From IMG/VR virus record IMGVR_UViG_3300025674_007494, positions 1-33,913 of that record: 33,913 nucleotides of DNA. One strand, 5' to 3'. Under the pieces are notes generated by a model. That model was not told where the DNA came from. It did no database searches and saw only the letters and a list, made by a program, of their open reading frames with translations. This DNA is from a virus. Shown here piece by piece: positions 11,944-33,913 of this stretch (position 1 is its first letter; each line of letters begins with the position of its first letter). Both the position numbers and the translations under genes were made by a program.

Positions 11944-14900
11944 ATGGCTCAAAGAGAAATAACATTAACGGGTACTAATATTGGATACGATATATCATAT
12001 GTTGATATATACCATGACTCTGTTTCTCCTTCAAATCTTGTCGTTTCGGGTGTGACCCGTTATGAATTAGAGACTGGATATTCCTTTTACGATGATGATA
12101 GTCACGACACATATATATTAGTAAGTAATGCGGTTTGCGGTACTGAAGCTATAGTACAAATACTAACACCTACACCTACAACTACTCAAACACCCACACT
12201 AACACCCACCAATACTATAACACCATCTTCGGGCTCAGGAATAGAATTAGATTTTGGAGTAACATATGAGAGTGGTTCTACAATAGCTAACTTTGTGGTT
12301 ACTGCGTCGACAATAGTATCAACAACTACTTTAGTTGAGTTTACAAATACGATTTATAAAACGGATGGTACCGAGATATCAGTAACCACTGGAGTAACTA
12401 TAAACGCTGGTGAAACCACAGGTTCTACTAGAGTCACAATTAATGAGGATTATGAAGATATAGTACCTTATGAAACCGTTTATAGTAATATTACTTCCTC
12501 AGGTGAAATAGTGTCAAGAATAAATATATATTCAAAAGTTGACTATATAGACAAACCGGCAGTAACCTACATTACCTACACGTTTAGAGGGTGTTGCCCT
12601 AAGGATGGTGACATTAGTGGTCTTATACCGACAACCGCATTAGATACTGGTGGATGGGTAGATATAGGAGGGGGAGTTATATACCAAGGTAAATGTTATA
12701 CTGCATACTCAGTTGGTGGTGACGGTTCAGCAGGGTATTTTTATGGAGCCGAAATAAAAACATGCTCAGATAAAAAATGCCCTACTTGTACTACTAATAC
12801 ACCAACACCAACATTAACGGTAACCCCGACTTTAACTCCAACGACAACCTATTGTTCAGCAGGATTAGATTGTTATTCAAATGTAATATTCCCAACACAA
12901 ACACCAACGTTAACACCCACACACACACCTACGCAAACAGCGACCCCAACTTCAACGGCAACACCTACATTAACAAATACACCACAACCAACAAATTCTT
13001 TAGGTTTAACCCCTACACCTACTAATACGCCAACAAGTACAACGACAAATACTAGTACACCGACATTAACATCTACTTTAACAGGGACACCACCGAATAC
13101 TCCAACATCAACAACTACACTAACTTCGACTCACACACCAACGCAAACTGCAACATCAACATCAACCCCAACACTAACTTCTCAGGTTACTAGTACTCCG
13201 TTGACCCCAACATCAACTCCTACTACAACACTAACTCAAACAACCACGAGCACCCCAACACATACAACAACACAAAGTGCAACACCAACATCCACGTCGA
13301 CATCAACACCCACGTTAACTCAAACAACAACAAATACTCCAACAAATACTTCAACACAAAGTGCAACACCAACATCAACACCCACGTTAACTCAAACAAC
13401 AACAAATACTCCAACAAATACTCCAACTAATACCTCAACACAAAGTGCAACACCAACTTTAACAAGCACACCACAACCAACAAATTCTTTAGGTTTAACA
13501 CCCACACCTACTAATACACAAACAAATACACAAACAATAACGTCTACGCCTACCAATACTGCAACTTCAACATTAACTAATACACCTACTAATACCCCAA
13601 CAAATACACAGACGTTGACTTCGACCCCAACTAATACTCAGACATTAACTGCTACAGCAACCAGAACTCAAGGACCAACAAACACACCGACCCTGACATT
13701 AACTAATACACCTACTAATACTCAAACAACAACATCAACACCAACAAGTACTTCTACCAACACACCAACACTAACATTAACTAATACCCAAACTAATACA
13801 CCAACAAATACACAAACAGTAACATCTACACCCACTAATACCCCAACAGTAACATCTACACCTACTAATACACCAACTTTAACTCAAACACAAACAGTAA
13901 CGTCCACACCCACTAATACTCCAACTTTAACTCCAACACAGACAGTAACATCCACTCCCACTAATACTCCAACACTAACAGCAACACAAACTGTAACTAA
14001 CACCAGCACACCAACAGAAACAATAAAATCAGGAGTACCTAGATTTTTAAGAACTTGTTGTGACCAACAGAGTTATACGTATAACGTACCCGCATCGGTA
14101 TCAGGTATTGGTTCAGTATTTAGTTTTAATGGTATTTGTTATGAGGTGATGGCGTCTGCGGTTTCGGCATCACAGTCCATTGGATTTGACTCAAAATATC
14201 TCAATTGTCAACATTGTATGTCTTGTGAAGAATATGAATCTTGTACAACACAGGATATGTATGGTTTGGCGACTCCTTGTACTGGAGGAACACAAATAAC
14301 ATGGAATACGACTGTGGGTACACATGCGTGTGTTGGTGATACATTTACATATAATAATATATGTTATGTAATTGATAGTATTGTGGGACAGGGTGCGTCA
14401 GGTGTTAATGTAACAATAGACGGATGTTTATGTCCAACACCTACACCTACACCAACTACCACCCTAACATCTACACCGACATCTACCCAAACACCAACAA
14501 ATACTACAACAAATACACCAACAGTAACATCTACACCCACTAATACACCTACATTAAGTGCGGATATAAATTATTTTAGACTTGGTACATGTTGTGCCGT
14601 TACAGGAGAATACTCAACAGTTGGTATTGTTGGAGGCTCTCCGTCTATTAATTACGGTTTTCAGTATAACGGTGTCGACTATTATTTAGATTCAGTTCAT
14701 GATAGTGGTCAGTTTACTTTAGATTACACTAACTTAATACCTAACTATTGTAGTGGTATTACCTGCCCAACTCCAACTCCAACACCAACAACAGGTGAAT
14801 TACCAGGACCCACTCCAACGTTAACTAATACTAGAACTCCAAGGTCAAGTAGTACTTCAACACCAACGGCAACACCTACACATACAACAACCAATACACC

Positions 14901-16260
14901 AACGGCAACACCTACATTAACCGCAACTCAAACATTAACATCAGAAGGAGTAACACCTACACATACAACAACCAATACACCAACGGCAACACCTACATTA
15001 ACCGCAACTCAAACATTAACATCAGGAGGAGTAACACCTACACATACAACAACCAATACACCAACAGCAACACCTACTCCATCAATCAACTCATTACTTA
15101 GTTGTTATGTTGCCGGTCCATTAACTGCCGACACATCTAACGGAGCGGTATTCGATAGAAGTATTAACGTTAGTGGAGTATTAGAGGTTATTGCGGGCGC
15201 TGTTGGAGGACAGGCAGCGGTACCTGATGAATTTTCTAAAAAAGTCGCTCGCTCATTCCAATTAATAATGGACCCATTAGCCACAGGAATTACCTTATCA
15301 TATCAAAATAATTTAGTAGCAACTTTAAGAGGTGATGAGGGTACTATACACGCAGGGTTACCAACGGCACAAAGAGTCGGGTACGGTAGTGGGGATGACT
15401 ATGACCCTAATTGGTTAACAGATGAGGGTATATCAGGATACACAGGATATCAAGAATTCTTAGATACTCATGCAGTTAATGACATGGTATGGTACCAAAG
15501 CGGTTCCACAAGTGGTGATACGGTAATAAATGAGGTATTTGAACATATTTTACATACCGTACATCTATTTGGGATAATGGGTGCGGTTCCCGGCTCATCG
15601 ACCGCGGTGAATTGGATGGCAGAAGAAAATCCAGATTGGCAAACAACAGACTTACACTTATCCATGAAACAAGCCATCGAGAATGGTATGTATGACCCAA
15701 CTGGCTACGCCCCTAATTGGAGTGGGGATACAGGTCAAGCTCAAGTGGCATATAAAGAGTATATGTACTTATTAAACTTCGGTATGTGGGAAATGTCCGA
15801 GTTTTGGGATGGTGGGTCATTATCTCCAGAATGGAATGATAGTATGAGAACTCCATCAGGAATTCAAACTAATAACATTTCAGGATATACATTGTTTAAT
15901 AATTACTTTGCACCAGTACTGACTAAACCTAGTTTTACAACACTAAGAAATATTTTCCAAAATAATGGAGGGGGTAGTTCAGGATATGTCGCCGATGATT
16001 GTGTAACACCAACACCAACACCAACCCAATCAGTAACACCTACATTAACTGCAACTCAAACATTAACATCAGAAGGAGTAACACCTACACATACAACAAC
16101 CAATACACCAACAGCAACACCTACACATACAACAACCAATACACCAACAGCAACACCTACATTAACTGCAACTCAAACATTAACATCAGAAGGAGTAACA
16201 CCTACACATACAACAACCAATACACCAACAGCAACACCTACATTAACTGCAACTCAATAA
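11944..16260 (+). CDS. Giant Thr-Pro-repeat modular fibre protein
   Basis: A 1438 aa mosaic. Residues 1-75 form a beta-rich head. About 110-215 is an Ig-like segment (Thr/Val rich). Cysteine modules of about 65-75 aa occur at about 205-282, 700-765, 766-830 and 877-941; most begin with CC or end in CxC/CxxC and contain a Y-x-x-N-G/N-I-C-Y or equivalent core. Thr-Pro-rich linkers separate them, the longest at about 317-693. Residues about 1046-1350 are a globular domain with [12 protein letters not shown] (E1200, H1201, H1204, H1207), unlike anything else in the window. The C-terminus again is TPT repeat. The linkers look like the extended, O-glycosylated Thr-Pro linkers of surface proteins. 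The expected role is a long tail or head fibre reaching the host surface. No signal peptide is seen. The family is not recognised. Confidence 0.75.
12892..14020 (+). repeat. Long Thr-Pro-coding low-complexity repeat
   Basis: About 1.1 kb of degenerate ACA/ACT/CCA/AAT-type codons encoding T-P-T-x-T units. The plus strand is almost free of G. Imperfect longer units are visible, for example a direct repeat of about 45 nt around 12978-13024 and 13468-13514 (encoding [16 protein letters not shown]) and a roughly 66-nt unit repeated in 13311-13460. Antisense reading frames across it are by-products of this composition. Confidence 0.9.
14872..15075 (+). repeat. 81-bp tandem repeat, left copy set
   Basis: Units of 81 nt at 14872-14952 and 14953-15033 plus a partial third unit, encoding 27-residue repeats with the core [12 protein letters not shown] (SGGV in the second). 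The same unit recurs at 16036-16257, on the other side of the globular domain. Confidence 0.85.
16036..16257 (+). repeat. 81-bp tandem repeat, right copy set, forming the C-terminus
   Basis: Repeats of the same 27-residue unit as in 14872-15075, with a shortened unit inserted ([12 protein letters not shown] duplicated). Third-position changes (ACA for ACG, ACT for ACC) separate the right set from the left set, so each set has homogenised by itself. The gene ends within a unit, at ACTCAATAA. Confidence 0.85.
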
Positions 16261-16280: not shown

Positions 16281-16844
16281 ATGTCATACATAGAAATAGG
16301 TTTAAATAGTCAAGATATAACTATATCGACATATGACGTATATGTTAGTAATTGCAACCCAACACAGTGGCAAATAGTTTCTGAAAATATAATATATTCT
16401 GATTTTCCTGTTATTGTTAATTTAGATGATTATTCTATAACAGGTACTTGTTATCAATATTATGTTTCAGGTGATACAGGGTGTTATTGTAGTCTATCTG
16501 GTGATACGTCTCCAAATCCAACACCAACAACTACTGTGACAAATACACCGACAACGACTGCGACAAATACACCGACAACCACAACAACAAATACTCCAAC
16601 TCCAACAGATGTTACGTGTGTTGAGTTTAAATTATATTGGACTTTTGATAATACGAGCGCTTGTAATGGTATATCTACAGGTTATAATAAATATTACTCT
16701 AATTATCCTTTATCTGCCGGAAATGTTTTGTATGATGATATAAACTGTACAATTCCATCTAATACCGGTAGATACATCGTATTAGGTGTTGGTAACGTAT
16801 TGTACGTTGGTAACAACGGTATTCTACAATCTTACACATGTTAA
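16281..16844 (+). CDS. Small fibre protein with Thr-Pro linker
   Basis: The 187 aa product has three parts: a beta-rich N-terminal domain (residues about 1-75) with Cys residues (CNPTQWQ, GTCYQYY, GCYCSL), a Thr-Pro linker (about 78-110, TPTTT/NTPTTT units) and a C-terminal module (about 112-187) with VECVEFKLYW-like start, ACNGISTGYNKYY and LYDDINCTIPSNTGRYIVLG. The C-terminal part resembles small domains seen at ends of Bacteroidota phage fibres, but I cannot name it. It sits between the giant fibre and a BppU-like fibre gene, all on the plus strand, and probably forms part of the same adhesion apparatus. Confidence 0.65.
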   Translation: MSYIEIGLNSQDITISTYDVYVSNCNPTQWQIVSENIIYSDFPVIVNLDDYSITGTCYQYYVSGDTGCYCSLSGDTSPNPTPTTTVTNTPTTTATNTPTTTTTNTPTPTDVTCVEFKLYWTFDNTSACNGISTGYNKYYSNYPLSAGNVLYDDINCTIPSNTGRYIVLGVGNVLYVGNNGILQSYTC

Positions 16845-16847
16845 ACT

Positions 16848-17768
16848 ATGAATTTTTATATAAGAAAAAATAGTACGTTACCTAAAATATCCGTGGAAGT
16901 TTTTACGGATAGTAATAACTCTTTTCGTAATAATTATGACAGTTTTTCTTCTTCTACAATAACACTTAACTTAATTGATGAGGGCACTAACAGTTACAGA
17001 TATATTGGTATTCCGGTTATTGTAAAAGAAAGTCCATCCACTGGTGACGGACCTAAACAGTATTATTTAGAGACACAACTAAATAAAAAGCAAACAAAAA
17101 AAACAGGTTCCTATGTAGGTGAATTTATTATCGAGGACGACAAGGGAAAAACGATACTACCAATAAATAATAAATTAAAGGTTTTTGTAATAGACTCATT
17201 TTCAAACCCTGATTTATGTTGTAGAACAAATAAAAACGAAGAAATAATCTTTCCAACTGAAACTTCTAAACCCACACAAACACCAACACCTACATTATCT
17301 AATACACCAACTAATACAACAACACCTACATTATCTAATACACCAACTAATACAACAACACCTACATTATCTAATACACCAACTAATACACCAACTAATA
17401 CAACAACACCTACATTATCTAATACACCAACTAATACAACAACACCTACATTATCTAATACACCAACGGAAACTTTAACATCTACACCAACTAATACACC
17501 AACGGAAACTTTAACATCTACACCAACTAATACACCAACGGAAACTTTAACATCTACACCAACTAATACACCAACACCTACATTATCTAATACAACAACA
17601 CCTACATTATCTAATACACCAACGGAAACTTTAACATCTACACCAACTAATACACCAACACCTACATTATCTAATACACCATCATCTCCCGAAACATTTT
17701 TTATTCTTTTTGAAGATGGTAGTATAATGACCTCGGAAGATGTTGACGGTATTGAATATGAACACTAA
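16848..17768 (+). CDS. BppU-N-like protein with Thr-Pro repeat tail
   Basis: The 306 aa product starts with an Ig-like domain (residues about 1-125): [41 protein letters not shown] and [20 protein letters not shown]. This pattern resembles the N-terminal domain of baseplate upper proteins (BppU_N type), which attaches receptor-binding proteins to the baseplate. Residues about 140-282 are Thr-Pro repeats, and a short non-repetitive tail (about 283-306, [23 protein letters not shown]) ends the protein. The N-terminal domain is paralogous to the protein at 18446-18799, which lacks the repeats. It starts 3 nt after the preceding stop codon, so the two are co-translated. Confidence 0.65.
17271..17680 (+). 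repeat. Two interleaved 36-bp Thr-Pro-coding repeats
   Basis: Two near-perfect 12-codon units, [12 protein letters not shown] and [12 protein letters not shown], are mixed in blocks. DNA copies are nearly identical, unlike the degenerate repeats of the 11944-16260 gene, which suggests recent expansion or active homogenisation. Confidence 0.9.
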
Positions 17769-17793: not shown

Positions 17794-18444
17794 ATGGCAA
17801 ATTTAAAGATATCACAGTTAGAACAATATACGGGTAGCCCAATAGGTATGTACATTGTTGTAGATAACGCGGCGCAAGACACAACATATAAAATGTTAAG
17901 AAGTGATTTCCTAAGACCAAATGACGATTTTAGAGTAATGTATGGTCTATATTCACAAACAGGTGAAACGGGAAATATTAGCGGTACCACTGAACAAACC
18001 ATAATCGGACCAGGTATAGGTACTTTATCTGTACCTGCAAATGGTTTTACTGCAGGTGATACTTTTAAAACAACAATTAGAGGTCACCTATCTAACGCAA
18101 ATAATGATTTTAGGATAAAAGTCTATTCTGACAGTTCGGTGTTAGTTGACACTGGTTTTATAAATTATAGTACTGCGGGTGAAGAAGTTTTGATGGACTT
18201 AGACCTCGATTTTGTTGTTTCTTCAATCGGAGGTGCGGGTACTGCGTCAGTATTAACTAAGGGTAGCCTTAGAACTATTAAAAACAGTAATTTCACAGTT
18301 AATGGTTATAGTTTTGAAACACATAATACGACCAGTTTTGATACAACAGTAGATAATGTGTTAAATGTCACTATCGAGTTTGATACGGAGGCTTCGGATA
18401 CATACTTAATGACTGACTTTTTAACCTTAACTAAAGTTTATTAA
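17794..18444 (+). CDS. Fibre head-like virion protein
   Basis: The 216 aa product begins MANLKISQLEQY, the kind of short N-terminal attachment segment seen in many phage fibre or tail-spike proteins, and continues as an all-beta domain: GTTEQTIIGPGIGTLSVPANGFTAGDTF and FKTTIRGHLSNANNDFRIKVYSDSSVLVDTG (about residues 65-130), then a repeated beta pattern to VTIEFDTEASDTYLMTDFLTLTKVY. The second part has the look of a jelly-roll fibre head domain. It has its own promoter-like element and no Thr-Pro repeats. It could be the receptor-binding tip of one of the fibres nearby. Family not certain. Confidence 0.65.
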   Translation: MANLKISQLEQYTGSPIGMYIVVDNAAQDTTYKMLRSDFLRPNDDFRVMYGLYSQTGETGNISGTTEQTIIGPGIGTLSVPANGFTAGDTFKTTIRGHLSNANNDFRIKVYSDSSVLVDTGFINYSTAGEEVLMDLDLDFVVSSIGGAGTASVLTKGSLRTIKNSNFTVNGYSFETHNTTSFDTTVDNVLNVTIEFDTEASDTYLMTDFLTLTKVY

Positions 18445-24913: not shown

Positions 24914-25429
24914 ATGACACAAAGAAAGGTACCAATTACGAGACTAAATAAATTCTTCAGTGGTGAAGATTTTGAATTAGATATTGCTATGGGTCGTGAG
25001 TGGCTTGAAGGTGATATGAATTTTACTTTAGTTTTATATAAGGTCGATAGACAAAAAACTAAGACGGATGACGTATACGGTGAAACAGTTGAAGATGGGA
25101 TTAAGTTCCACCCTCCTGTTGAGTTTCGTGGATATGTTCAAATAGAGCAACCTGAAAACCAAGACTATGGTCAGAGTCGTATGACACAAATGGAACCTGG
25201 TAATTTAAAGGTAGGTGTTTATCAAGACTCTTTGGATGAACTTGGTATTGACATCGATTATGGTGATTATATTGGTTACTACGAAACTGAGTCTCGTGTT
25301 AGATATTACACAGTTGTTAATGATGGACGTGTTGTTAGTGATAACAAACATACTTATGGTGGATACAAGTCTTTTTATAGAAGTATTGTTGCGTCACCAG
25401 TAAACGATAATGAATTCAGAGGATTATGA
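24914..25429 (+). CDS. Probable neck protein, T4 gp14-like
   Basis: The 171 aa product is soluble and beta-rich: LDIAMGREWLEGDMNFTLVLYKVDRQKTKTDDVYGET (about residues 23-59) and GVYQDSLDELGIDIDYGDYIGYYETESRVRYYTVVND (about 98-134). The last part, with a G-D-Y-I step followed by a tyrosine-rich strand ending in a V-x-D turn, resembles the region of T4 gp14 around EGDLIYFP...FEINWVEP. Its position just before the gp15-like gene and near the gp13-like gene matches the T4 order 13-14-15. gp14 completes the neck after DNA packaging. It is shorter than T4 gp14 (256 aa). It overlaps the next gene by 4 nt. Confidence 0.5.
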   Translation: MTQRKVPITRLNKFFSGEDFELDIAMGREWLEGDMNFTLVLYKVDRQKTKTDDVYGETVEDGIKFHPPVEFRGYVQIEQPENQDYGQSRMTQMEPGNLKVGVYQDSLDELGIDIDYGDYIGYYETESRVRYYTVVNDGRVVSDNKHTYGGYKSFYRSIVASPVNDNEFRGL

Positions 25430-25887
25430 ATAGAAAACTTATAAAAGAAATCAGTAAGATGAAATCCCAAATGGGTTTAATTAAAGAAGATATTGGCGAA
25501 GAACTATTAGGTCTTCGTGTTATGGTATATTATAATTTACACAAACATACTTTTTCTGTAACCTACAATGGTAGAGTTGTTTTATATGCCGATTATGTTA
25601 AACTAAAGAACGTCGAATTTAGAGTAAGAGAGGGGGGTAAGGAAAAAGTGAGACAAGAAATGAGAAAAAATGTACACGCCTTTGTTATCGGTGATTTAGT
25701 CGACTACTGTCAGTATCCGTGTGAAAATATGCCGCCTGAAACTAATGATAAAGTAATTACATATAATCCATACAAATATGATTCATTTGTTAGAAAAGAC
25801 ACTGAAGAGCCGGTATATAAGGCAAATGAGATTGATATGATTAATACAAAAAATAAAATTTTCCATATTAACGAGATTGTTGAGTAA
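25426..25887 (+). CDS. Conserved phage protein with KNVHAFV block
   Basis: The 153 aa product contains LRVMVYYNLHKHTFSVTYNGRVVLYADYVKLKNVEFRVREGG (about residues 29-70) and KVRQEMRKNVHAFVIGDL (about 73-90). A block of the form NLHK...S(V/I) ... V.L.N..F.V...G...V..E.RKNVHAFV is familiar to me from uncharacterised proteins in several large phages, but no function is known. It overlaps the gp14-like gene (ATGA) and the gp15-like gene (one base), so it is translated with the neck and tail-terminator genes. It is not part of the T4 neck set and may be a cargo gene. Confidence 0.6.
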   Translation: MNRKLIKEISKMKSQMGLIKEDIGEELLGLRVMVYYNLHKHTFSVTYNGRVVLYADYVKLKNVEFRVREGGKEKVRQEMRKNVHAFVIGDLVDYCQYPCENMPPETNDKVITYNPYKYDSFVRKDTEEPVYKANEIDMINTKNKIFHINEIVE

Positions 25888-27214: not shown

Positions 27215-30200
27215 ATGGCAACATCTAACAAAGTTTTCGTTTCTCCGGGTGTATACACATCGGAAAGAGATTTAAGTTTTGTGGCTCAAAGTGTCGGTGT
27301 AACAACGTTGGGGATTGTGGGAGAAACCTTATCAGGTCCTGCATTTGAACCAATATTCATCTCAAATTTTGATGAATTTACCGCATACTTTGGTGGCACA
27401 AGTCCAAATAAATATGTAAATACTCAAATACCTAAGTATGAGGCGGCATATATAGCAAAGGCTTATTTACAACAGTCAAACCAATTATTTGTAACAAGAG
27501 TTTTAGGTTTATCAGGTTATGACGCCGGTCCTTCATGGTCTATTGCTACTGTTGGTAATGTCGATAAATCAACGGTTGGGGTTTCTTCGACCGTATCCGC
27601 AGTAGATATATCATACAGTGGAACCCAAAGTGCCGCATCTACAGTAGAAATTACTAACTATTCCGCATTACCTGCAGGTATCAAAAATTATTTTACAGAC
27701 CCTTACACAACTTTTAGTGGTGGTGAATCTACTTTAAAATCAGATTTAGAAAATCTTTTATATACTGATATATTAGATATGTTAGATGATGGTAAAACCG
27801 CTTATATTTTTGGTACTTTGTCTGATACAAGCTTTAATGGTTTAACAGGTGCTTCTGTTAATTATACAGGAAATACTAATGTTTTAGGTGTAAGTGGATT
27901 AACTGATTCAGACGCCGATTATGAAGCGTCAGAAAATGACGCATGGTATTACGCGTTATTCCCAAGTCCTTCAGGAAATGATTATACGGGTTATGGATTT
28001 GGTGCGATAACAACGGCATTATTGGATGTTGGTAGTGGTGTATACAACGGCTCAGCAACTGTTTATATAACACAATTCTCAGGAACCGCAATACAGGATT
28101 ACCACAATATGATTGTCTCAACATTACGTTCAAGAGGTATTGTCACATACGGAAGTGATGACGGTCCTGTATATCAAGTATCAAACTTAAGTGATGTGAC
28201 ATTAAACACTAGCGGTGTTTACTCAGCGTCAACTAAAAATCCATTTGCAACTTTTGAGATTTCGGGTATAACTAAGGACAGTGAAACATTTACATTTAAA
28301 ACTTCATTTGACTTAGGCGAAACTAACTATATAACTAAGGTTCTTGGACAAAGTAATTTTGCAAAACCAAGAACTGAGGTACCTTTATTTGTTGAAGAAA
28401 ATTATTACAACTTACTAAACACTGGTTATAGAGAAGGTAAGATTAGAGGTATTAAGACCGACTTAGTTGAACTAAATGGTGCTAGAGACGACAGTGATAA
28501 TACTGGTATTGGTTGGTATTTAGACCAATATCAAACACCTTCAACTCCTTACGTTGTTTCAGAATTAAGAGGTAATAAAGTTTATGACTTATTTAGATTT
28601 ATTACAATATCTGACGGTAACTCGGCAAACAGAGAGGTAAAGATTTCTATAGTAAATATCTCATTCAATAACCAAAGTTTTGACGTAATTGTAAGAAACT
28701 TTAATGATACTGATGCAAATCCATCAGTGTTGGAAAAGTTTACAAATTGTACATTAGATATATCTCAAAATAGTTATATCGGTAAAAAGATAGGTACATC
28801 TAACGGAGAATTTGAGTTAAAGTCTAGATACATTATGATAGAAATGAATGAGGACGCACCTATAGATGCTCTACCTTGCGGATTTAGAGGTTATCAAACA
28901 AGACAGTACTCAACATTTAAATCTCCATACTTATTATATAAAACAAAGTACGATGGGGCTGGTGATGTATTATTTAATCCTCCGTTTGGTAGTGCCAACG
29001 GAGATAATTTAACAAGAAGTGGAGGAGATAACGTAAGAAAAACTTACTTAGGTGTTTCAAATACTGTAGGTATAGATGTTGACTTCTTATCATACAAAGG
29101 TAAACAAAATCCAACAAACTTAGATACTGCAACTGAATCAAGTTCTTGGGCTTACCTAACAAAAGGTTTCCACATGGATTCTGGAGCAACTATTGTCACA
29201 ATACCTGATTCATATACAACTTCAGGTGAAAGTGCTTTTGAAGTGGGTGTTACTTCATTTAATTCAGAACCATCTAGTGAAACAGACCCATATTACAAGT
29301 TAAATGCACGTAAATTCACTTTAGCACCTTCTGGAGGTTTTGATGGATGGGACATTTACAGGGAGTATAGAACTAACGCTGATAGATATACTCTAGGTAA
29401 TACAGGTTTCTTAAAAGGAGCGGCTCCGAGTACAACTTATCCGTCAGCAACAGGATGGGGGGCGTTTAAGCCGTTTGTTGGTCCTGATAAACAAAATTGG
29501 GCAAATACTGACTATTACGCATATTTGTGGGGTCAGTATACATTTGCAAATCCCGAATCAGTAAACATAAACATATTTACAACACCAGGTATTGATTATG
29601 TAAATAATTCTAATCTTGTTGAATCGGCTATAGATTTGGTCGAGACAGATAGAGCGGATTCGGTTTACATTTGTACAACACCTGACTATAATATGTTTGT
29701 ACCAACAACAGCAAACTTTACTACTGACTTTATTTATCCTGAAGAAGTAATCGATAATTTAGAAGAAACAGGAATAGACTCAAACTATACTGCAACTTAC
29801 TACCCATGGATATTAACAAGAGATTCTGTTAACAACACTCAAATTTACTTACCACCAACAGGTGAGGTAGTTAGAAATTTAGCGTTAACAGATAATATCG
29901 CATTCCCATGGTTTGCTTCAGCTGGTTACACAAGAGGTCTAGTTAATAGTATAAAGGCACGTAAGAAACTAACGCAAGACGATAGAGATATACTATATAA
30001 AGGTAGAATTAACCCTATCGCGACATTCTCTGATGTTGGTACAGTAATTTGGGGTAATAAAACTTTACAGGTTAGAGAATCAGCACTCGACCGTCTAAAC
30101 GTCAGAAGATTGTTGTTACAAGCACGTAAGTTAATTTCAGCAGTAGCAGTAAGATTGTTGTTTGAACAAAATGATGACCAAGTAAGACAAGAGTTCTTAG

Positions 30201-30400
30201 ATTCAGTTAACCCAATCTTAGATTCAATTAGAAGAGATAGAGGTTTAATTGACTTTAGAGTTGTTGTTCAAAACACTCCTGAGGATTTAGACGCCAACCA
30301 ATTAGTTGGTAAGATTTATCTAAAACCAACAAGAGCACTTGAATTCATAGATATTGAATTCTTGATTACTCCAACAGGAGCATCTTTTGAGGATATCTGA
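27215..30400 (+). CDS. Tail sheath protein (T4 gp18-like), oversized
   Basis: The start NKVFVSPGVYTSERDLSF is the typical sheath N-terminus, and VGETLSGPAFEPIFISNFDEFTAYFGG (about residues 35-61) continues it. The C-terminal domain (about 880-1061) is the most conserved: ARKKLTQDDRDILYKGRINPIATFSDVG, VIWGNKTLQ, LNVRRLLLQARKLISAVAVRLLFEQND and KPTRALEFIDIEFLITPTG. The sheath contracts to drive the tube through the host envelope. At 1061 aa it is far longer than T4 gp18 (659 aa); the extra length lies in the middle, about residues 120-850, which would project outward from the tail. It is followed by a strong hairpin terminator. Confidence 0.92.
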   Translation: MATSNKVFVSPGVYTSERDLSFVAQSVGVTTLGIVGETLSGPAFEPIFISNFDEFTAYFGGTSPNKYVNTQIPKYEAAYIAKAYLQQSNQLFVTRVLGLSGYDAGPSWSIATVGNVDKSTVGVSSTVSAVDISYSGTQSAASTVEITNYSALPAGIKNYFTDPYTTFSGGESTLKSDLENLLYTDILDMLDDGKTAYIFGTLSDTSFNGLTGASVNYTGNTNVLGVSGLTDSDADYEASENDAWYYALFPSPSGNDYTGYGFGAITTALLDVGSGVYNGSATVYITQFSGTAIQDYHNMIVSTLRSRGIVTYGSDDGPVYQVSNLSDVTLNTSGVYSASTKNPFATFEISGITKDSETFTFKTSFDLGETNYITKVLGQSNFAKPRTEVPLFVEENYYNLLNTGYREGKIRGIKTDLVELNGARDDSDNTGIGWYLDQYQTPSTPYVVSELRGNKVYDLFRFITISDGNSANREVKISIVNISFNNQSFDVIVRNFNDTDANPSVLEKFTNCTLDISQNSYIGKKIGTSNGEFELKSRYIMIEMNEDAPIDALPCGFRGYQTRQYSTFKSPYLLYKTKYDGAGDVLFNPPFGSANGDNLTRSGGDNVRKTYLGVSNTVGIDVDFLSYKGKQNPTNLDTATESSSWAYLTKGFHMDSGATIVTIPDSYTTSGESAFEVGVTSFNSEPSSETDPYYKLNARKFTLAPSGGFDGWDIYREYRTNADRYTLGNTGFLKGAAPSTTYPSATGWGAFKPFVGPDKQNWANTDYYAYLWGQYTFANPESVNINIFTTPGIDYVNNSNLVESAIDLVETDRADSVYICTTPDYNMFVPTTANFTTDFIYPEEVIDNLEETGIDSNYTATYYPWILTRDSVNNTQIYLPPTGEVVRNLALTDNIAFPWFASAGYTRGLVNSIKARKKLTQDDRDILYKGRINPIATFSDVGTVIWGNKTLQVRESALDRLNVRRLLLQARKLISAVAVRLLFEQNDDQVRQEFLDSVNPILDSIRRDRGLIDFRVVVQNTPEDLDANQLVGKIYLKPTRALEFIDIEFLITPTGASFEDI

Positions 30401-31582: not shown

Positions 31583-32071
31583 ATGGCTGATTTATTAATG
31601 AAAATGCCCGTCCCTTATGAGCCCAAAAGGAAAAACCGATTTATACTAAGTTTTCCTTCTTCATTAGGTATTAACTCATGGTACGTTGAGTCTACATCAA
31701 GACCTCAAGTCAGTATCAACCCAACAGAAATTCCATTCTTAAACACATCAACTTATGTTGCTGGTAGATTCACATGGAACACGATTAACGTTACGTTTAG
31801 AGACCCTATTGGTCCTTCGGCGTCACAAGCCCTTATGGAATGGGTTAGATTAACTGCAGAATCAGTTACAGGTCGTATGGGTTATGCCGCGGGTTACAAA
31901 AAAGACCTTGACCTTGAGATGTTGGACCCAACAGGTGTTGCTGTTGAAAAATGGATATTGCAGGGTACATTCTTAACTGATGTAAATTTTGATAGTTTGG
32001 GATATAGTGATGATGCGTTGGCTACAATCACCGCGACATTACGTCCTGATAGATGTATTTTGGTTTACTAA
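31583..32071 (+). CDS. Tail tube protein (T4 gp19-like)
   Basis: The 162 aa product closely matches T4 gp19 in length (163 aa) and pattern: KRKNRFILSFPSSLGINSWYVESTSRPQVSINPTEIPFLNTSTYVAG (about residues 15-61), NTINVTFRDPIGPSASQALMEWV (about 66-88) and WILQGTFLTDVNFDSLGYSDDALATITATLRPDRC (about 124-158). Hexamers stack to form the inner tube that carries DNA into the cell. It has its own promoter-like element and a strong terminator just downstream, which suits the high copy number needed. Confidence 0.92.
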   Translation: MADLLMKMPVPYEPKRKNRFILSFPSSLGINSWYVESTSRPQVSINPTEIPFLNTSTYVAGRFTWNTINVTFRDPIGPSASQALMEWVRLTAESVTGRMGYAAGYKKDLDLEMLDPTGVAVEKWILQGTFLTDVNFDSLGYSDDALATITATLRPDRCILVY

Positions 32072-32149: not shown

Positions 32150-32902
32150 ATGGAAGATAATACAAGACAATACGGACAACAAGATTTTAATTTACCTCAC
32201 GATGTGTTAATTTTACCATCTAAGGGTAAATTTTATAAAAACAAAAAAAAATCACTAAAGGTTGGGTACCTTACCGCTCAAGACGAAAATGTATTAGTAT
32301 CATCACCAAATAATGACACAATAATCAAAACTTTAGTTAAAAATAAAATATATGAACCCGACTTCAATGTGGACGACCTGTTAGAAAGTGATTTAGAGGC
32401 AATATTAATATTTTTAAGAAACACCTCATTTGGCCCTGAATATAATTTTAGATTAAAGGACCCTAAAACATCTAAGGAATTTACTAAAACTGTATTGTTA
32501 GATGAATTAGATATTATAGAACCAAAAATTGAACCTAATTCAGACGGTCTTTTTGAACTAACTTTACCAAAAACTGGAAAAAATATAGTATGTAAATTAC
32601 TTAATATAGGTGATATAAATGAACTAACAAGATTAACTGAATCTTACCCTGATGGTGTTGTCGCACCTGTCGTAACCAAAAGACTTGAAAAATATATTGT
32701 ATCCATAGAAGGGAACAATAATAGAGAAGAAATTAGTAAATTTGTTATGTCTTTACCTATTGCTGACTCCAAACACATAAGAAACACATTAAGAGAATGT
32801 GAACCACGATTAAATTTAAATCGTACAGTTAACGCCCCGTCAGGAGAAAAAGTGGATATTAGAATCACTTTTGGGGCGGAGTTTTTTCGTCCTTTCTTCT
32901 GA
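32150..32902 (+). CDS. Baseplate hub-type protein, T4 gp26-like
   Basis: The 250 aa product resembles the gp26-like baseplate/hub proteins of T4-type phages: LPHDVLILPSKGKFYKNKKKSLKVGYLTAQDENVL (about residues 15-49), where the surface-exposed start LPSKG-x-x-Y and a T-x-x-D/E-E-D/N-(I/V)-L block is typical, then DDLLESDLEAILIFLRNTSFGPEYNFRLKDP (about 78-108) and a C-terminus ending VDIRITFGAEFFRPFF. The family links the hub and wedges or helps tail assembly. It starts 12 nt after the tube terminator, with no promoter-like box in between, so transcription may run through. The last 32 nt overlap a frame that continues as the next gene. Confidence 0.6.
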   Translation: MEDNTRQYGQQDFNLPHDVLILPSKGKFYKNKKKSLKVGYLTAQDENVLVSSPNNDTIIKTLVKNKIYEPDFNVDDLLESDLEAILIFLRNTSFGPEYNFRLKDPKTSKEFTKTVLLDELDIIEPKIEPNSDGLFELTLPKTGKNIVCKLLNIGDINELTRLTESYPDGVVAPVVTKRLEKYIVSIEGNNNREEISKFVMSLPIADSKHIRNTLRECEPRLNLNRTVNAPSGEKVDIRITFGAEFFRPFF

Positions 32903-33074
32903 ATATAGAATAGCTCTGCTTGATGAAATCTACTATCTATGTCGACACGTAAATATGTCGTATATGGATGTTATGAATATGCCTACATACGAAAGAAAAT
33001 ACTTTATAAATAAATTAAGTGACGAATTTAAAAGAAAATCAGAAGCCATAGATAAAGCTAAAAGTAAAAGGTAA
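32871..33074 (+). CDS. Small gp51/chaperone-like protein overlapping the gp26-like gene
   Basis: A 67-codon frame (start as TTG at 32871) with SSEYRIALLDEIYYLCRHVNMSYMDVMNMPTYERKYFINKLSDEFKRK. The pattern E-x-(I/L)-x-x-L-x-x-x-x-x-(M/F)-x-x-x-D-(V/L)-x-x-MP-x-x-x-R-x-(Y/F) is that of small baseplate-assembly or tail-assembly proteins found after the gp26-like gene in T4-type phages. The start is uncertain: there is no ATG before codon 28, so TTG, another alternative codon, or a +1 frameshift from the gp26-like gene near 32882-32888 are all possible. It is followed by the tape-measure gene. Confidence 0.55.
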   Translation: MGRSFFVLSSEYRIALLDEIYYLCRHVNMSYMDVMNMPTYERKYFINKLSDEFKRKSEAIDKAKSKR

Positions 33075-33099: not shown

Positions 33100-33913
33100 A
33101 TGGCTAACGGAGAAAACATAAAGGACCCAACAGACGAATTTGCAAAGAATGTAGATAACTCTACACAAACGGTAGAAGGATTAGCAGATTCATTTAATTA
33201 TGCTGAATATAGCATAAAGAGTTTAGGAAAGACGTATAGAACGGCTTTAGACCCCACAAATATATTAAAAACAAAAATTGCCTTAGAAGATATGACAATG
33301 ACTCTAACACGAGAGTCAATGGGTCAAACAAAGGCTATATCTGAAGGTATTGAAAAGGCAGTTGCTAAAGCGACTTATGAGACATCATTGTTTGGTATTA
33401 ATGTAGATGACAATCTAAAATTAATGCAAGAAATCAACGAAGTCATGCAGGTTAATACATTGTTAAGTTCTGAACAAATAACCAATATGCAACTATTGGG
33501 TAGAAGTGCTGGAATTTCAGGTAAAGAAATTTCAACCATGGTTATGGGATTTAAAGACCTTGGTGTTGGTACTGACGAAGCCATAAAAAATATTCATAAT
33601 ATGGGACAACAAGCCCGTTCTTATGGTATTAATGTTTCACAATTTATGGGTAAAATTAGTGAAAACATAAAAAAACTAAGTGCGTATAACTTTAAAGACG
33701 GAATACAAGGATTTAGTAATATGTTGGCTAAGGCTCAGGCATTAAGAATAGATGTTAGTCAAACATTTAAACTGGCTGAAGATTTACTTGCACCTGAAAA
33801 GGCGATTGAAATGGCTGCAGGGTTTCAGATGGTTGGAGGTGCGGTTGGTGCTTTAGGTGACCCATTCAAACTGTTACATATGGCACAAACAGATGTTGTA
33901 GGACTACAAGATG
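33100..33913 (+). CDS. Tail tape-measure protein, N-terminal part (3' end outside window)
   Basis: An open frame from the ATG at 33100 to the right edge, 271 codons, translated by hand. It begins MANGENIKDPTDEFAKNVDN and is helix-rich: SLGKTYRTALDPTNILKTKI, GRSAGISGKEISTMVMGFKD, NMGQQARSYGINVSQFMGKI, AGFQMVGGAVGALGDPFKLLHMA. Alternating long helices, repeated aliphatic heptads, phase-like GI/GV turns and its place after tube and baseplate genes are typical of a tape measure, the protein that sets tail length and is ejected first into the host. Transmembrane segments expected later in such proteins lie outside the window. Confidence 0.7.
   Translation, partial: MANGENIKDPTDEFAKNVDNSTQTVEGLADSFNYAEYSIKSLGKTYRTALDPTNILKTKIALEDMTMTLTRESMGQTKAISEGIEKAVAKATYETSLFGINVDDNLKLMQEINEVMQVNTLLSSEQITNMQLLGRSAGISGKEISTMVMGFKDLGVGTDEAIKNIHNMGQQARSYGINVSQFMGKISENIKKLSAYNFKDGIQGFSNMLAKAQALRIDVSQTFKLAEDLLAPEKAIEMAAGFQMVGGAVGALGDPFKLLHMAQTDVVGLQD

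Follow-up and report, generated by a model that had tools for sequence, protein, structure and literature searches.

The stretch of DNA considered here (the window) comprises the 33,913 nucleotides of the IMG/VR virus record IMGVR_UViG_3300025674_007494, and within its contractile-tail genes it carries a gp26-like gene whose 3' end is overlapped by a small open reading frame (ORF). The ORF has 67 codons (32871-33074, TTG being codon 1), lies in the +1 frame of the gp26-like gene (32150-32902) and shares 32 nt with it (32871-32902); a run of six T followed by C (32882-32888) falls inside the overlap. All of this agrees with a preliminary description made from the sequence alone. That description also noted a late first ATG, and there is indeed no early one, the position being codon 29 rather than 28. 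Comparison with relatives indicates that the small frame very probably encodes the C-terminal end, or T part, of a tail assembly chaperone (TAC) and is entered through a programmed +1 frameshift at TTT_TTT_C in a gene of the PF12322 family. The short product of the gp26-like gene is referred to as TAC-N and the predicted fusion as TAC-NC (Table 1).

The small frame is conserved and appears to be coding. A protein search of viral contigs yielded 320 relatives, the best 80 of which (the window clade; 59 unique genes) were analysed. The +1 frame is open over the overlap in 80/80 of these, up to its stop or to the contig end (the contig of one locus, L046, ends inside the T part). Additional loci were obtained with a DNA pattern which fixes the 5' block of a hairpin and the shift site and leaves the 3' arms free. 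The pattern matches at least 120 loci, partly on the same contigs as the first 80, and these were examined in two rounds, the first 80 and later all 120 listed. Among the matches listed, the +1 frame is open in 120/120. Single-base codon differences 3' of the zero-frame stop are synonymous in 69% of cases in the T frame versus 16% and 16% in the other frames (55 unique sequences). As a control, a long alternative frame also spans the 3' end of 3 others among the 14 listed plus-strand frames of the window; for these (17794-18444, 24914-25429 and 25426-25887) the overlapping frames are the next frames, each with its own ATG. The conservation of the open frame over the overlap is beyond chance, and the earlier observation is confirmed.

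The choice of codons at the site is the second line of evidence. The T6C run, whose conservation in relatives had been proposed as a check, is kept as TTTTTTCGN in 80/80 window-clade loci, although TTC is synonymous for Phe. The site is likewise found in 120/120 pattern loci among the matches listed, but the pattern itself fixes TTTTTTCG. The P-site codon would be TTT (32885-32887), which could re-pair with TTC (32886-32888), the zero-frame A-site codon being CGT (32888-32890). The features of the UUU_CGN class of +1 sites, namely a P-site UUU followed by C, an A-site CGN and a conserved choice of both, are present in 80/80 loci. The A-site codon is CGT in 52, CGG in 25, CGA in 2 and CGC in 1 of them, and CGN, a candidate slow codon, accounts for 101/481 Arg codons elsewhere in the same genes. 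A column was taken as single-codon when a single residue occupies it in 80% of genes or more and is encoded by the same codon in 99% or more of these. By this measure 13/137 degenerate columns are single-codon in the 59 unique genes; six of the 13 lie in the last nine codons (GGG, TTT TTT, CCT, and TTC TTC), and four are the A-P-S-G codons on the 5' side of the hairpin. Both TTT columns contain one codon only in the 59 genes, with TTC making up 14% of Phe codons elsewhere there. Codons after the slip are doubly coding, and therefore their invariance is expected; the invariance of the two TTT codons calls for slippage.

The identity of the protein was examined through profiles and through its predicted fold. 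The gp26-like protein scores 42.0 bits against PF12322 (T4_baseplate) with a cut-off of 24.5, and hence belongs to this family. The zero-frame protein matches phrog_150 (E 1.1e-13, 52.3 bits) to profile position 233, and the fusion made in silico reaches position 274 of 282 with 62.1 bits, which is further and better than TAC-N. The same profile is covered by T4 gp51 to position 280 and by the 57-residue gp51 of cyanophage P-SSM2 at 239-278. Profile-profile comparison connects the T parts in steps, with probabilities of 99% for window T and Mel-JY01 T, 82% for Mel-JY01 T and cyanophage T, and 95% for cyanophage T and the end of gp51 (a truncated gp51 of 120 aa, L097, was kept in the gp51 alignment). 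Mel-JY01 T compared directly with gp51 gave no significant match in this profile comparison. The AlphaFold model of TAC-N has a predicted local distance difference test (pLDDT) score of 84.8. In a VIA-align comparison with 981 PDB chains its top match is YqbN (3klu; Z 5.7, 84 aligned, 3.6 Å), presumably a prophage tail-chaperone-type protein, together with the HK97 TAC (2ob9; Z 5.5, 92 aligned, 4.2 Å), the next best being at Z 2.5. The T part is modelled as a three-helix domain (pLDDT 89.9), for which the structure look-up returned nothing above Z 2.9. The comparison of relatives shows the frame, the site and the profile homology of the T part to the C-terminus of T4 gp51, as well as the stem-loop described below.

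DUF6760 (PF20546) was also considered for the T part and rejected as an assignment, the T parts of the window, L099 and L165 scoring 17.5, 18.1 and 17.1 bits against a cut-off of 27. With P-SSM2 gp51 and with the T part of L084 the DUF6760 search returned nothing. These sub-threshold matches recur at similar profile positions in the three T parts, and the T part is possibly the same domain as DUF6760; a lax search for DUF6760 also matches in 5/14 control genomes.

A stem-loop is predicted 5' of the shift site. All window-clade sequences share the invariant block GCCCCGTCAGGAGA, located 51-38 nt before the P-site codon. Its potential partner is GGGGC/T immediately 5' of the site, and the two arms enclose an inner helix; 7 nt separate the end of the stem from the P-site codon, which places it near the E site. 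The pattern loci listed (at least 120) all have the same 34-nt spacing. In a first set of 40 unique sequences (A1), 97.9% of 520 cells are paired and 6 are compensatory, with 0/500 shuffles having as many. In a second set (A7) of 66 new sequences from the first 80 pattern loci, the corresponding values are 90.9% of 858 cells, 65 compensatory cells and 0/500 shuffles, and slid versions of the stem-loop score lower. RNAalifold recovers the stem-loop unaided on A7, where one pair varies GC/AU/CG and another GC/CG; on A1 it chooses a different inner helix. In 28 further sequences helix 1 pairs in 28/28 and each counted pair of helix 2 in 18-24/28. Pairs changed on both sides number 3 in A7, no more than the shuffled 2.9, so only the cell count exceeds the shuffles, and the base-pair shuffle controls do not preserve the relatedness of the sequences. 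The predicted stem-loop is nonetheless supported by covariation in the second sequence set. Folding z-scores, for which 20 sequences were sampled per clade, place the folding energy of the window clade below that of shuffles 5' of the site (z -2.37), and RNAalifold found no structure downstream of the site in this clade. The window segment 32835-32881, folded alone and lacking the first base of helix 1, adopts a different pairing (z -1.12).

The 5' bulge TCAGGAGA contains AGGAG, for which roles in pairing or initiation are not supported. A pseudoknot between the bulge TCAGGAGAA and the downstream TTCTTCTGA is not supported, as it shows no compensatory change and one of its pairs is broken in 25/66 sequences. 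An internal Shine-Dalgarno (SD) sequence beside the site was rejected as a stimulator for the window clade because GGAG is not kept, being replaced in GCA/GCT variants and in GAA/GAC in A7. The codon at a candidate zero-frame internal start after AGGAG is GTG/TTG in 78/80 loci, but often GTA, CTA or GTT in A7. The stem-loop itself probably stimulates the +1 shift, because on 70S ribosomes a hairpin that refolds right beside the site increases +1 frameshifting and decreases -1 frameshifting, according to a passage of Huang et al. (2018, PMC6321510).

The +1 layout extends to far relatives. It is found in 6/6 records fetched, namely vB_SagM-GXN1 (Streptococcus), immuto (Flavobacterium), Mel-JY01 (Microcystis), LR756508, SP-15 (Bacillus) and LIS04 (Listeria), and also in Rhodothermus phage RM378; a second SP-15 record (L179) is not among the far records counted, and SP-15 and GXN1 as queries found one locus each. 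Of at least 600 Mel-JY01-type matches, 80 were taken, two of them cut by the contig end, and +1 at the same Phe-Phe codons is seen in 78/78 assessable loci (TTT TTT TGG in 73, CTT TTT TGG in 3 and TTT TTT TAC in 2). In the 71 unique genes of this clade, 3/105 conserved degenerate columns are single-codon, these being TTT, TTT, and the CCT behind TGG, and TTC makes up 26% of Phe codons elsewhere. Similarly, the GTDB contigs (six loci, one cut) have +1 in 5/5 examined, four of which come from metagenome-assembled genomes of Flavobacteriales or Winogradskyella. The LR756508-type set (20 loci, two cut) has it in 16/18 examined, the other two having a separate ATG-started T gene.

In cyanophage-type loci (80 of 570 taken) the Phe-Phe codons read T_TTT_TTC and the T part is in the -1 frame in 80/80. 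This frame runs into a short gp51, which has its own ATG just after the stop. Their structure signal is 3' of the site (z -2.30), with z -0.19 upstream. The 3' ends of these gp26 genes (L184-L263) thus combine T_TTT_TTC, an open -1 frame and a downstream structure signal, and a -1 frameshift into cyanophage gp51, annotated as a separate gene in P-SSM2, is likely. The T part of L180 is in the -1 frame as well, with no ATG/GTG/TTG until 24 codons past the stop, and LR756511 has a T gene with ATG at the stop. In T4, gp26 and gp51 are two PF12322 genes, and the T part resides in gp51. A tree of 53 proteins, from which the truncated L097 gp51 was left out, shows strong clustering of the five labels (6 changes versus 18.3 shuffled); gp26 and gp51 form sister groups beside the cyanophage proteins, and L180, L181 and L182 are long branches of unsure placement. 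On balance, these data incline us to the view that T4-related phages make two TAC forms via one homologous Phe-Phe pair with the direction set by lineage, and that the window clade has a natural hairpin-driven +1 shift, the first of the UUU_CGN type on bacterial ribosomes. The shift would be +1 on UUU_CGN or UUU_UGG in the Bacteroidota-linked, Bacillus, Listeria, Streptococcus, Rhodothermus and Microcystis phages and -1 on U_UUU_UUC with 3' structure in the cyanophages, and T4 would have two fixed gene copies.

From the comparison we infer the slippage itself, its efficiency, the role of the hairpin and the chaperone function in this phage, in the following sequence. Most ribosomes would read 32150-32902 and stop, giving TAC-N of 250 aa. 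In a fraction of ribosomes the peptidyl-tRNA-Phe would sit on the second TTT with CGT waiting, slip forward by one base and re-pair with TTC. Reading in the +1 frame would then continue to 33074 and yield TAC-NC of 307 aa with the three-helix T domain at its end. The 5' stem-loop would refold behind the ribosome, next to the E site, and probably stimulate the shift. On the model of lambda gpG/gpGT, binding of the tape-measure protein would fall to TAC-N, and recruitment of tail tube subunits to the T domain. The comparison strongly supports the +1 shift at T6C that the preliminary description had raised, with a gp26-like fusion in the G/GT style as its product.

Several observations weigh against this reading. 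Many of the 80 window-clade loci are near-copies (59 unique genes). The direct profile comparison of window T with gp51 is not significant, and Z values of 5.5-5.7 are modest, with Foldseek giving E 0.54 and probability 0.63 for 2ob9. The LIS04 site is TTT TTT AGT, where re-pairing is less clean, and folding z-scores and RNAalifold found no structure on either side of the site in Mel-JY01-type loci. The window clade also has z -1.45 at -110..-60 and z -1.67 at +12..+90, and therefore the 5' signal does not stand alone. Finally, start codons do occur: a +1-frame ATG lies within 18 codons upstream of the site in 26/80 close relatives, some start codon lies within 12 codons after it in 53/80 window-clade loci, and 6/7 far records have one somewhere upstream in the +1 frame, RM378 being without. 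The upstream ATG and the downstream starts make separate initiation possible in those close loci.

An improbable alternative, based on these start codons, treats the small frame as an independent gene: translation would begin at TTG or at another codon within or close to the overlap, or ribosomes would re-initiate past the stop. The TTG is well placed in the window and is kept in 70/80 relatives, Mel-JY01 is annotated with the T frame as an overlapping gene, and in the far relatives L282, L286 and LR756511 the T gene is separate, its ATG lying at the stop or beyond it. However, the TTG start, earlier held to be the simpler option, is not supported by the relatives, whose codon there is TCG in 10/80 whereas TTTTTTC is kept in 80/80. 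Going upstream, the +1 frame closes within 10 codons in 76/80 window-clade loci. In 5/80 of them neither the stretch upstream of the shift nor the 9 codons that follow it contain ATG/GTG/TTG, and the same places hold no start codon in 11/73 unique pattern loci; 29/78 Mel-JY01-type loci are without a start upstream, and 15/78 are also without one in the first 20 codons. These start-less loci still keep the site and the frame, and a start codon would not account for the invariant TTT TTT. Relatives with a clear start and no overlap, which had been named as evidence against a shift, do exist, but only as far ones and not in the window clade. L282 has a separate T gene with ATG after the stop and has lost TTT at the site (TTC TTG TAT), and L286, also with its ATG after the stop, keeps CTT TGG while its T frame is no longer +1. 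Hence a separate T gene is unlikely in the window clade.

A -2 shift would reach the same T frame with one extra Phe, and the runs of six or seven T in the window clade and most Mel-JY01-type loci leave room for it; a passage of the PRFect paper (PMC10885494) mentions GUU_UUU cases of -2. It is nevertheless a very improbable route. At TTC TTT CGT (L082), TTC TTT TGG (14/18 LR756508-type loci) and AAC TTT CTA (L085), tRNA-Phe can re-pair one base forward only and not two back, and therefore, on this pairing argument of our own, +1 is favoured over -2. Transcriptional slippage in the T run, giving mixed mRNA, would suit the T6-T7 runs but is barely credible, since the +1 layout is retained with T runs as short as TTT or TTTT (L083, L085, L271-L281 and L283-L285), sites such as TTC TTT CGT likewise have no long run, and the covarying RNA hairpin beside the site points to translation.

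The assignment as a TAC gene agrees with the surrounding gene order. The window has a contractile-tail block of sheath, tube, gp26-like gene, 67-codon frame and tape-measure-like gene, in which the TAC gene lies between the tube and the tape-measure-like frame (whose tape-measure match is weak, E 0.029), as for G/GT-type chaperones. In L083 and L087 an annotated tape measure follows the TAC locus. The sheath gene (27215-30400) is long, at 1061 aa, and matches phrog_23, a 496-position sheath profile, nearly end to end; because of this difference in length it probably carries a large insertion. Elsewhere, the frame 11944-16260 encodes 1438 aa in which non-repetitive modules separate long repeats rich in Thr and Pro (TPTLTNTPT-like), and the adjoining genes at 16281-17768 have the same kind of repeats.

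Table 1. Positions of the tail genes and of the predicted frameshift elements in the window.
Feature	Position	Strand	Basis or detail
Tail sheath protein	27215..30400	+	phrog_23, E 1.9e-56
Tail tube protein, gp19-like	31583..32071	+	phrog_4542, E 5.3e-29
gp26-like gene, TAC-N (short form, 250 aa)	32150..32902	+	PF12322, phrog_150, gene position, AlphaFold model
Predicted 5' stem-loop	32834..32877	+	Helix 1 32834-32839/32872-32877; 5' bulge 32840-32848; helix 2 32849-32855/32865-32871
Invariant TCAGGAGA in the 5' bulge	32840..32847	+	40/40 unique sequences of a set not selected for it
TTG, candidate start in the preliminary description	32871..32873	+	TTG in 70/80 and TCG in 10/80 relatives
Putative shift site TTT_TTT_C	32882..32888	+	TTTTTT + CGN in 80/80; single-codon TTT columns
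+1-frame T extension, C-terminal part of the predicted TAC-NC fusion	32889..33074 (stop 33072-33074)	+	Coding signal, phrog_150, three-helix model
Start of tape-measure-like gene, running off the window	33100..33913	+	Weak phrog_167 match, E 0.029; position

Two-form TACs made by frameshifting are already known from other tailed phages, and TACs of T4-like phages have already been published. Like lambda gpG/gpGT, the window locus is predicted to have a short form and a frameshifted C-terminal T part, and T would need no start codon; unlike it, the predicted shift is +1 and not -1, and the N-domain falls in PF12322. T4 gp26 and gp51 share PF12322 with the window, and gp51 likewise has a T part (phrog_150 to 280), but they are two separate paralogous genes for which no frameshift is needed. 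The TAC genes of T4-like phages are reportedly the subject of Vladimirov, Gautam and Davidson (2022), whose title names a mechanism other than frameshifting. These genes would be gp26 and gp51. A sentence citing it in the PRFect paper (PMC10885494) describes a short and a long TAC copy, and the work is cited again in a passage of PMC12846349. In cyanophage gp26 and short gp51 (P-SSM2 type) the T part also follows the same Phe-Phe codons and is a profile relative of gp51, but the frame is -1 at T_TTT_TTC, the structure signal is 3', and ATG comes right after the stop. According to a passage of Sullivan et al. (2010, PMC3037559), cyanophage gp51 resembles the C-terminus of T4-type gp51 and reaches about 20% of its length. 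Likewise, in Vandenendeviridae (phage Adele) a TAC upstream of the tape measure has a poly-T site, and its C-terminal frame appears in annotations mostly as a protein of its own, but the shift is -1 at GTTTTT (an excerpt of PMC12846349).

The site itself resembles the UUU_CGN +1 class defined on influenza A PA-X in a passage of Firth (2012, PMC3498833), in which the P-site UUU re-pairs with UUC, the A site holds CGN and the codon choice is conserved. That class is described for viruses of eukaryotes, and PA-X is without an evident stimulator, in a passage of Atkins (2016, PMC5009743), whereas the window belongs to a bacterial virus and has a 5' hairpin. For the hairpin the closest parallel is the +1 site of prfB (RF2), where an upstream duplex near the E site raises +1 on 70S ribosomes, and an engineered hairpin can replace the prfB SD duplex (a passage of PMC6321510); unlike these duplexes, the hairpin of the window clade is natural and covaries. 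The literature search, made in open-licence papers, returned no +1 TAC in the PF12322 family, which does not imply absence from print. As far as these searches show, the +1 direction in this TAC, UUU_CGN on bacterial ribosomes and the 5' hairpin are new.

The lambda-type tail frameshift is described as widely conserved "except T4", with HSTV-2 very likely +1, in a passage of Atkins (2016, PMC5009743), which also gives the roles of the lambda gpG/gpGT chaperones. T4 is thus the named exception to tail-gene frameshifting, yet its protein family appears, from the sequences compared, to frameshift over much of the wider tree. Annotation is affected as well: among six annotated +1 records (L082, L083, L084, L086, L087 and L181), two omit the T part (GXN1 and LIS04), three show a shorter piece from a later start (immuto, SP-15 and RM378), and one, Mel-JY01, has it as a separate overlapping gene. 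With the apparent direction differing by lineage at homologous codons, and with the window clade having its strongest structure signal 5' of the site and the cyanophages theirs 3', these phages form a natural set for asking what decides +1 versus -1, and the 5' hairpin of the window clade is a natural case in which hairpin-driven +1 frameshifting could be tested on 70S ribosomes.
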